DNA of 64,000 nt from Bacteroidota bacterium (GTDB taxonomy: Bacteria > Bacteroidota > Bacteroidia > Bacteroidales > Lentimicrobiaceae), in contig WSXX01000020.1 in the NCBI GenBank assembly GCA_009773515.1, forward strand, positions 1 through 64,000. The letters run 5' to 3'. Shown here in pieces: positions 47,159-49,935 of this stretch (positions are counted from its first letter, which is position 1; every line of letters starts with the position of its first letter). Below the pieces are notes generated by a model, which saw only the letters and a list, made by a program, of their open reading frames with translations, was not told where the DNA came from and did no database searches. The position numbers and the translations under genes were made by a program.

Positions 47159-47192
47159 AAAAAGCTTCGTTGTTTAACGGAGCTTTTATTTT
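47159..47192. terminator. Bidirectional terminator between bTHX and murD2
   Basis: The stem aaaagcttcgtt / aacggagctttt (one T-G pair) with a 4-nt loop is followed by ttattttttc. It overlaps the murD2 stop codon. Confidence 0.85.
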
Positions 47193-48562
47193 TTCATGAC
47201 TATCTCTTCATAACGAAGACCCCTTTCTTCAAAATTTCTGAAGTTATCGTAACTTGATGCTGCCGGAGAAAGAAGACAAACGCATTTTTCGGGAGTTGCT
47301 CTGATCGCTTTAATTACGGCATCATCAAAACTGCTTCCCATTTCAAAAAAGGGTTTAATTCCATTGAATGAACTTAATAATTTCATCATTCTTTCTCCTG
47401 CCGGCCCTGTAAAAACAATGTGTTTTACACTGCTTTTGCAGAGTTTTTCAATAAATGGTCCATAATCAATGTCTCTGTCAAATCCCCCTAAAATAAGGGT
47501 GTGAACTGTTTGAAGTGTGTCAAGTGCTGCAAGTGTTGCTTCGGGGATGGTTGATATGGAGTCGTTGTAGAAATGTTTGTTATTTTGAATTCCGAGAAAC
47601 TCAATCCGGTGTTTCAGCGGTTTGAATGTTGCAATACCATCAATGATGGCTTCGGCGGGAATGTTCGAAATACGGGCAGCTGTAGCAGCAATAATGATGT
47701 TTCTCAGGTTGTGCAGGCCGGCAAGCTGTGTCTGCGGCTTCTCAGGCAATAAAATCTGTTCATGATGACCTCTTCGCAGTATAAAGTTTTTCCCTGATTT
47801 GCCTGCGCCGTCTCCTGAAAAAACTGAGGTAAATGCCGGTAACTTGTTCCCCGGAATTGCTGTATCTTTCAACAGTCCTGCAATAATCTGATCGTCAGGA
47901 TTGTATATAAAGTTATCATTTTCAGACTGTTTGATTGCAATCTGGTATTTTGCAAGCTGGTAATCTTTGTAGGATGCATAATGATCCAGATGCTCCTGAA
48001 AAATGTTGAGCAAAACCGAAGTTGAAGGTGCCCGCGAAATATATTCCAATTGATGCGACGACAATTCACAGATAATTCTGGTTTTGTCATCAATCCTTTC
48101 AGTAAGGTCAAAAAGCGGAATGCCGATATTACCGGCCAGCAATGTGTTGCTTGTGTAGCCGGAAATTATATGATACAGCAGAGATGTTGTGGTACTTTTG
48201 CCTTTGGTCCCGGTTATTCCGGTTGTAAGTGGTGCGAAATTTCTGAGGAAGAGGTCGGTTTGAGAAGTGATTTTCGAATCAAGCTGCGATAAACCTTCTT
48301 TGAAAACAGAAATACCCGGCGATTTTATCACCATGTCGAAATCTTTCAGGTATCCGGTGTAATTATTTCCGGAAAAGAGTGTAATTCTGTCAGCCGTCAG
48401 TTCCGGATTCTCCTTTTCGAGGTTTTCGTTTTTATCGGCAACAGCCAGCGGAAGCTCAGGAAAATAACCGCGCAATAACCTGAATGTAGATTTCCCTTCT
48501 CGTCCATAGCCAAGTATCATCACTTTTTTGTCCCTGAAAAGGGATTTGAGCATATCTTTCAT
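47186..48562 (-). CDS. murD2: UDP-MurNAc-L-alanine--L-glutamate ligase (MurD2)
   Basis: A 458-residue Mur ligase. The N-terminal Rossmann-like domain has VMILGYGREGKST; the ATP loop is GITGTKGKSTTTSL (residues 116-129), differing from ordinary MurD (GTNGKTT) by Lys for Asn and Ser for Thr; the central domain has CELSSHQLEYI; the C-terminal domain has FYNDSISTIPEAT (N333-D334-S335). The GTKGKST and NDSIST forms are what I recall of MurD2, which adds L-Glu instead of D-Glu. The ATG overlaps the stop of the MurL-type gene (ATGA), so both are translated together. Ordinary MurD activity is the alternative. Confidence 0.85.
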   Translation of the reverse strand: MKDMLKSLFRDKKVMILGYGREGKSTFRLLRGYFPELPLAVADKNENLEKENPELTADRITLFSGNNYTGYLKDFDMVIKSPGISVFKEGLSQLDSKITSQTDLFLRNFAPLTTGITGTKGKSTTTSLLYHIISGYTSNTLLAGNIGIPLFDLTERIDDKTRIICELSSHQLEYISRAPSTSVLLNIFQEHLDHYASYKDYQLAKYQIAIKQSENDNFIYNPDDQIIAGLLKDTAIPGNKLPAFTSVFSGDGAGKSGKNFILRRGHHEQILLPEKPQTQLAGLHNLRNIIIAATAARISNIPAEAIIDGIATFKPLKHRIEFLGIQNNKHFYNDSISTIPEATLAALDTLQTVHTLILGGFDRDIDYGPFIEKLCKSSVKHIVFTGPAGERMMKLLSSFNGIKPFFEMGSSFDDAVIKAIRATPEKCVCLLSPAASSYDNFRNFEERGLRYEEIVMKK

Positions 48563-49935
48563 CGCAGTGCTTTTTTTAATAAACCGAGCAAAGCCGGCGA
48601 TAAGTTATGACCTTCAGCCTCGGAAATCCTCAGATTCTTTTCTTCAGAGAGCCCTTTCAGATTCAGAAACCTGTCCATCAAAACGAGATTCTTTCTTTCG
48701 GAATCATTACGGGCTATCATGCTCATTGCTATATTAACATCTTCAAGGGTGCCCACACATTCAAATGGCTTGTTTTCTGCGATTCCGGTAAGTTCATCAA
48801 AAACAGGAATCAATTCCGCATCGTTCAGCATATCAGCCCCAATAATCCGGCTGGCGTATTCTGTGCCATTAAAAGCAGACAACATGATGCTGGTAAACAG
48901 GCATTTGGAACATTTTCCGCACCATGAGTCGGTTTTACTTCCAACATTACAACTTCTGAAAACCTGATGATAATTTTCCAGCCCTGAGAAAATGGATACT
49001 ATCTGAAGTTCGTTTAGTGGCCTTAAAAAACTGAAATAATTGAAGGATGGTGAAATAAAGTTGCTGTAATACCATCTGAAATCATCCTCAAATTCAATTG
49101 ATTTTGAATATTGATGGTTGATATTGGTGCCTGGAATGGTGACTTCATTTGCGCTTGATTCGTTCGATAGCGCGATATTACTATAGCCATTCAGCAAGGA
49201 AGCCAGCAAGGTGTAAAATGCCAGCATGGCAGAAAACGGGGTGTGTCCATTCAAATAACCAAGGTTGTTGAGTCTGAGCAGTTCCGGGTCAATGGAGCGT
49301 GAAATGGTAAAGGCGTCGCTGTAATCAAGCCCTGCTGCTGTAACTGTATGTATGGTGGCGCCTCGTGGATTAATGATCAGAGGCCTCAGGGTTTTATTAT
49401 CTCTTTTCAGCAGTTCAAGGGTAACGGCAGAGTCTTTTCCGCCTCCGATGGGCACCAGAAAGCCATCCCCGATTCCGTCTATTGATTGAATTTCAGTTTT
49501 ATCACCTGATGATTTTATTTCAACAAAATCGTCAATGGAAGTTTGAATTCCATTGATATAGAAAAATTCTCCCAAACCGTTGAAATAGAGCTTTTTCCAC
49601 CAGTTGCTTTGTTGGTCTGTGAGTTTGTTTGTATGGATATTGATCACAGGCGAGCAGGTACTTTTCCAATAGCTGATCAGTTCAATCAGGCCAATATGAA
49701 AGATTATATTATCAGCTGCAGCTTTGTTTGCATGATAGTTTCTGATAAAAGCTTCTTTATGATTCCCAAAATGAAAAACCGAGACAGGGTGAAAATCAGT
49801 CAGCCCGTTTATCCTGAAAGAGAACTCAATTCTTAACCCCTCATTGGTTATACCGGCCTGAAATCCATCGTAATGGAACTCAGGAAATTTATTTCTCAGA
49901 GTTTCGAAATTTTCCGGTTGATCTGAAAGTTGCAT
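48559..49935 (-). CDS. murL: UDP-MurNAc-L-Ala-L-Glu epimerase (MurL)
   Basis: A 458-residue cytoplasmic protein. It has a PP-loop-type ATP motif, VPIGGGKDSAVTLELLKR (residues 161-178), a serine/asparagine-rich site (NIALSNESSANEV) and a cysteine cluster WCGKCSKC (C339, C342, C345). This layout, the length, and the direct coupling to a MurD2-like ligase match MurL, which inverts the terminal L-Glu of UDP-MurNAc-L-Ala-L-Glu using ATP, making murI dispensable. I recognise it from context and motif, not from an alignment. It starts the murL-murD2 operon. Confidence 0.8.
   Translation of the reverse strand: MQLSDQPENFETLRNKFPEFHYDGFQAGITNEGLRIEFSFRINGLTDFHPVSVFHFGNHKEAFIRNYHANKAAADNIIFHIGLIELISYWKSTCSPVINIHTNKLTDQQSNWWKKLYFNGLGEFFYINGIQTSIDDFVEIKSSGDKTEIQSIDGIGDGFLVPIGGGKDSAVTLELLKRDNKTLRPLIINPRGATIHTVTAAGLDYSDAFTISRSIDPELLRLNNLGYLNGHTPFSAMLAFYTLLASLLNGYSNIALSNESSANEVTIPGTNINHQYSKSIEFEDDFRWYYSNFISPSFNYFSFLRPLNELQIVSIFSGLENYHQVFRSCNVGSKTDSWCGKCSKCLFTSIMLSAFNGTEYASRIIGADMLNDAELIPVFDELTGIAENKPFECVGTLEDVNIAMSMIARNDSERKNLVLMDRFLNLKGLSEEKNLRISEAEGHNLSPALLGLLKKALR

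Follow-up and report, generated by a model that had tools for sequence, protein, structure and literature searches.

The murL-murD2 gene pair

We analyzed a 64,000-nucleotide stretch of DNA (hereafter the window; contig WSXX01000020.1 of assembly GCA_009773515.1) from a Lentimicrobiaceae bacterium of the order Bacteroidales and focused on two adjoining genes on its minus strand, murL (48559-49935) and murD2 (47186-48562), each an open reading frame (ORF) of 458 amino acids. A sequence-only reading of this DNA had described a PP-loop protein of 458 residues with GGGKDS and CGKCSKC motifs, followed with a 4-bp overlap by a Mur ligase bearing GTKGKST and NDSIST, and had assigned the pair to the MurD2/MurL pathway of Xanthomonas, in which L-glutamate (L-Glu) is added first and then inverted. 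The ORF translations bore out both proteins and their motifs, and the murL stop overlaps the murD2 start by 4 bp at 48559-48562 on the minus strand, an overlap size that recurs in relatives. In MurL, the PP-loop motif (residues 164-169; 49429-49446, minus strand) was invariant across 43 alignment rows, as were all four cysteines of the cluster C329-x9-C339-x2-C342-x2-C345 (48901-48951, minus strand), a probable metal site that may resemble the zinc site of QueC. In MurD2, G118 and K120-T124 of the ATP-binding loop GTKGKST (residues 118-124; 48191-48211, minus strand) were invariant in 38 alignment rows.

MurD2 matched the NCBIfam murD model TIGR01087 with 299 bits (cut-off 212), a threshold also passed by the canonical MurD of the same genome. 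MurL matched NCBIfam NF041275 with 228 bits (E 1.6e-67, residues 68-424) and no Pfam family at E 0.001, including the QueC family PF06508. We modeled MurL with AlphaFold2 from the 43 rows (predicted local distance difference test 92.4, predicted template modeling score 0.92) and compared the model with the PDB using Foldseek. The best match was QatC (9y02; E 5.0e-5, 456 columns, template modeling (TM) score 0.40 by query length), followed by QueC (3bl5; E 6.9e-4, TM 0.60 by target length) and then, in order, by TtuA, MnmA, and Cap9; a sequence profile search with MurL also gave a weak match to TtuA (E 0.0064). QueC and Cap9 activate a carboxylate at the expense of ATP, according to PMC13279940, and PMC8788868 describes MurL as a protein without known conserved domains whose reaction consumes one ATP and releases AMP. 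The predicted fold of MurL is thus QueC-like and fits ATP-driven carboxylate activation. A term search of two QueC-family papers turned up neither MurL nor peptidoglycan.

We then inspected the residues that determine which glutamate isomer is used. In Xanthomonas oryzae, the pathway proteins are MurD2 (XOO_1320) and MurL (XOO_1319); PMC8788868 attributes L-Glu use by this MurD2 to Glu197 and Arg358 (Asp182 and Lys348 in Escherichia coli MurD) and reports that the K319T substitution makes E. coli MurD accept L-Glu. In the window's MurD2, E190 (47993-47995, minus strand) aligns with E. coli D182 and X. oryzae E197, I336 (47555-47557, minus strand) with E. coli K319, and R363 (47474-47476, minus strand) with E. 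coli K348 and X. oryzae R358. In an alignment of 71 rows, made up of the window and the 70 named loci in which a MurD2 frame was found, every covered row had Glu (70/70), Ile (69/69), and Arg (69/69) at these positions; locus L210 does not fully cover any of the three sites, and L213 fails to cover two of them. The MurD encoded in the division and cell wall (dcw) cluster of the same genome has D/K/K where MurD2 has E/I/R, and from these residues we infer that MurD2 prefers L-Glu over D-Glu.

The two genes also stay together in relatives. Among 19 genomes of the family searched, all 17 that bear MurL have a MurD2 ORF after murL. A scan of named genomes yielded at least 583 confirmed relatives, of which 80 were kept as named loci; 79 are titled as Bacteroidota groups, including Lentimicrobiaceae and Candidatus Colimorpha, and the single exception is titled Ruminococcaceae and is perhaps misbinned. 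A MurD2 frame follows murL in 70 of these 80 loci and was not seen in the other 10 despite at least 1.7 kb of downstream sequence. In six of the 70 (L199, L221, L237, L238, L241, and L249), the two are fused into one protein of 896-948 amino acids with MurL first; L032, from genome G124, is such a fusion too, and fusions overall span ∼900-950 amino acids. The pairing of murL with murD2 is not due to chance. One genome, G071 (family f54), carries a murL with an internal TAA and lacks any full match to the MurD family at E 1e-45, possibly because of pathway decay or an assembly error. Neighboring ORFs in the window presumably correspond to fmt, yqgE, and a RecQ-type helicase.

Exchange of MurL and MurI across Bacteroidales

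The sequence-only reading had called for a search for the glutamate racemase gene murI, and we found none in the source genome (5.03 Mb, 67 contigs, 97.2% complete). PF01177 at E 0.001 gave no match there, compared with 10 of 14 control genomes, and TIGR00067 gave none even at E 10, compared with 11 of the 14 controls (eight above cut-off). That reading had also named a canonical murI plus murD in the dcw cluster as a finding that would speak against its assignment: murD is indeed present in the cluster, but murI is absent. We extended the search to 295 evenly drawn genomes of the order, counting matches as strong at E 4.3e-35 or better for MurL and E 5.4e-19 or better for MurI. Strong MurL matches occurred in 98 genomes and strong MurI matches in 180; no genome had both, and 17 had neither. 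Excluded from these counts were three weak MurL fragments (G092, G204, and G230) and 24 of the 204 genomes matching TIGR00067, whose best E values were weak (1.5e-5 to 6.6e-13). The assignment to a Xanthomonas-type pathway is thus supported by the lack of MurI, by the L-Glu-type residues of MurD2, and by the 0/295 genomes with both strong matches.

We built a quick MraY tree of 108 rows, of which 82 came from MurL genomes, 14 from MurI genomes, and 12 from genomes with neither; two changes are required to account for the pathway labels of the 96 labeled rows. The distribution of MurL and MurI amounts to one switch, or two counting family f101, whose placement is unsure because of long branches. 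A phylum-wide spread of MurL was considered and rejected: among 395 genomes of the phylum, a full MurL was found only in the window's own, and the other nine matches were weak fragments.

We explain these findings by a working MurD2-MurL module that displaced MurI early in a large Bacteroidales clade, a reading drawn from sequence comparison to which we assign a probability of about 0.9. MurD2 would add L-Glu first and MurL would then flip it to D-Glu, replacing the racemase; the takeover from MurI would have come early in the clade, with the old dcw MurD persisting, at full length and with its catalytic residues here and as the C-terminal domain alone in many relatives. It is very likely, as judged from the genes, that a Xanthomonas-type route runs in Bacteroidales. 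The genes, the L-Glu-type residues, the absence of MurI, and the predicted fold of MurL come directly from our analysis; from the Xanthomonas enzymes we infer, by analogy, the substrate, product, and direction of the pathway.

Several results weigh against this explanation. MurL falls under the cut-off of 700 bits for NF041275, the equivalog of Xanthomonadales MurL, and we therefore treat it as a distant functional counterpart outside that equivalog. Among the 24 weak TIGR00067 matches, 19 fall in MurL genomes (∼1.5e-5 to 9.6e-12), and should they represent genuine glutamate racemases, as many as 19 genomes would have both. Because the mutual exclusion goes back to about two changes on the tree, it does not represent many independent observations. 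Moreover, the dcw MurD of the source genome is of the D-Glu type with intact catalytic residues, and the genome encodes a class-IV aminotransferase that scores similarly against IlvE and D-amino-acid transaminase, under both cut-offs (101.8 bits against TIGR01121, cut-off 277.45). A second route to D-Glu is therefore possible, and sole dependence on MurL is not implied.

These last two proteins are also the starting point for a rival account, in which the transaminase-like enzyme supplies the D-Glu of the wall, the intact dcw MurD incorporates it, and MurD2-MurL is left as a back-up or for another glycopeptide. The aminotransferase (E 1e-20 or better) occurs in 17 of 28 MurL genomes with a full MurD and in three of 28 with a short one, and in nine of 24 MurI genomes. 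However, its link to the state of MurD (Fisher p 2e-4) includes only three well supported independent pairs and is phylogenetically insecure, and the enzyme is present in MurI genomes while not being found in 11 of the 28 full-MurD MurL genomes. Thirty-six MurL genomes have no full dcw MurD. We searched 18 of these for other MurDs, and 14 had exactly one full-length MurD-family protein, adjoining murL; in the remaining four, a full-length MurD lies elsewhere in G019 and G088 and none was found in G071 and G075. We consider this account quite unlikely. It is very improbable that the Glu unit made by MurD2 and MurL belongs to some other polymer or a natural product rather than to peptidoglycan. 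The neighbors of the pair in the window, by their presumed names, do not look like wall genes, but two observations tie the pair to the MurD step: MurL and MurI replace each other across the order, and the dcw MurD is shortened only in MurL genomes, with one exception (G032). In G032, which is 98% complete, we could find neither MurI nor MurL, and a MurD search at E 1e-45 gave no match, yet this genome encodes a short MurD.

The dcw MurD and its stand-alone C-terminal domain

The canonical murD of the source genome lies between mraY and ftsW and encodes a protein of 447 amino acids (409 bits). Among the 98 MurL genomes, canonical MurD is full length in 47 for which the locus itself was inspected and full or nearly full in six more judged from matches only; in 36, only a stand-alone C-terminal domain is present, in three the gene is cut by a contig end, and six (G037, G094, G124, G145, G197, and G251) were placed in no MurD class. 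The short proteins are 176-199 amino acids long, exactly 182 in 18 of the 36, and consist of a PF02875 domain with ∼45 residues ahead of it (five of the 36 scanned; four above the gathering score). By alignment, 26 of them start at the Met corresponding to residue 266 of the source genome's MurD, three have that Met with extra residues ahead, and seven start nearby without it. The order mraY, short murD, ftsW was found on one contig in 35 of the 36 genomes; in G018, the contig ends before mraY. From the 180 MurI genomes, 80 were tested and none has a short MurD: all 80 have a MurD covering nearly the whole profile, counting as near-full that of G023, which is split at a contig end. In G197 (contig C55, locus L112), ∼650 bp separate murL from mraY, which lies on the other strand, and the 1.5 kb following mraY showed neither murD nor ftsW; this family may have a fragmented dcw cluster. 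A literature search found no description of a stand-alone dcw MurD C-terminal domain, and the sole match on truncated MurD, in the part available, concerns Acinetobacter.

These short proteins are probably more than debris. The ratio of nonsynonymous to synonymous substitution rates (dN/dS) was 0.054, 0.061, and 0.150 in the three pairs of short MurDs that are closest to each other, which indicates purifying selection. The full-length MurDs of MurL genomes keep K115, E157, D182, H183, K198, N268, R302, K319, and K348 in 47/47. The short MurDs retain S415 in 26/36 and the D-Glu contact K348 in 7/36, so that MurD-like binding of D-Glu is not expected of them. Compared with MurI genomes, the full-length MurDs of MurL genomes are over-conserved at the internal Met (motif MT[LI]EELALQ), where the windows rank first and second among 440 of eight residues, although this test used only 14 MurI sequences and the MurL genomes come close to forming a single clade, such that shared ancestry may explain part of the signal. 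The bases ahead of this Met are A-richer in MurL genomes, but G+C content differs as well.

Judging from the trees, truncation of the dcw murD probably occurred several times. The state of MurD requires 14 changes on the MraY tree, of which well supported branches force five (10 and four with MurL rows alone), and 10 changes on a tree of the C-terminal domain itself, two of them forced. The short MurDs of G066 (f49) and G090 (f73) have the full-length MurD of their own family as nearest relative, and in f1 the closest relatives of each short MurD are the other short ones, followed by full-length forms. However, the listed nearest relatives of the short MurD in the mixed families f4, f26, f34, and f94 are not their own family's full form, and the trees come from quick searches and contain long branches. 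Instead of repeated truncation, a short murD allele may have spread laterally.

As to why the domain is kept, it may have a noncatalytic job. We tentatively suggest, at somewhat less than even odds, that this job is needed beside MraY and FtsW, as docking or regulation in the wall or division complex, and that deletion repeatedly led to the same Met because this was already an isoform start. Once MurD2-MurL took over catalysis, the remainder of the dcw murD would have become dispensable, and truncations would converge on a Met from which full-length genes would already have expressed a separate C-terminal isoform. It is unlikely that the short MurDs are instead decaying, functionless pseudogenes. 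Such decay would account for the missing ATP-binding and UDP-N-acetylmuramoyl-L-alanine-binding domains, the losses at K348 and S415, the very long branches of several short MurDs, and the higher dN/dS of more distant pairs (0.18-0.95, though with dS near saturation). The position between mraY and ftsW, the length of 176-199 amino acids and common start region, and the low dN/dS of the closest pairs speak against it.

Significance and comparison with known systems

The distribution named for the pathway in the available parts of PMC8788868 and PMC5808125 covers Gammaproteobacteria, Alphaproteobacteria, and Actinobacteria, with low-similarity orthologues in a fungus, cyanobacteria, and an amoeba; those parts do not name Bacteroidota as carriers. 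A wider literature search, in which subscription journals were mostly uncovered, returned no further paper on the MurD2/MurL pathway among the matches listed. Our results would add much of the Bacteroidales (98/295 sampled genomes) to the groups with this wall route, so far known from some Proteobacteria and Actinobacteria. In MurL-bearing members, annotation rules that require MurI and drugs directed at MurI should not apply. Moreover, the leftover MurD domain offers a natural experiment on roles of MurD beyond catalysis. Full and shortened murD genes occur within one genus (G000 and G012 versus G014 and G018), which makes the question testable.

The Bacteroidales pair shares with X. oryzae MurD2/MurL homologous proteins, adjoining genes, Glu and Arg in the positions that determine L-Glu use, and the lack of MurI. 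It differs in its low score against the Xanthomonadales MurL model (228 bits, cut-off 700) and in the natural MurL-MurD2 fusions of some relatives. Bacteroidales MurL genomes retain the canonical dcw MurD or its C-terminal domain, in which they may differ from Xanthomonas. With the QueC family (QueC, Cap9, and QatC), MurL would share its predicted fold, the PP-loop, the Cys cluster, and ATP activation of a carboxylate. In contrast to that family, MurL has no Pfam match and reaches a TM of only 0.40 by query length with QatC, and its proposed product is an epimer, whereas QueC-family products are an amide, a nitrile, or a protein conjugate. MurD2 is a paralogue of canonical MurD that scores above the TIGR01087 family cut-off; unlike the canonical combination of MurD and MurI, it has E/I/R for D/K/K at the Glu site and occurs in a genome without MurI. 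The short MurD corresponds to the same domain as PF02875 but stands as a separate gene in the dcw cluster.
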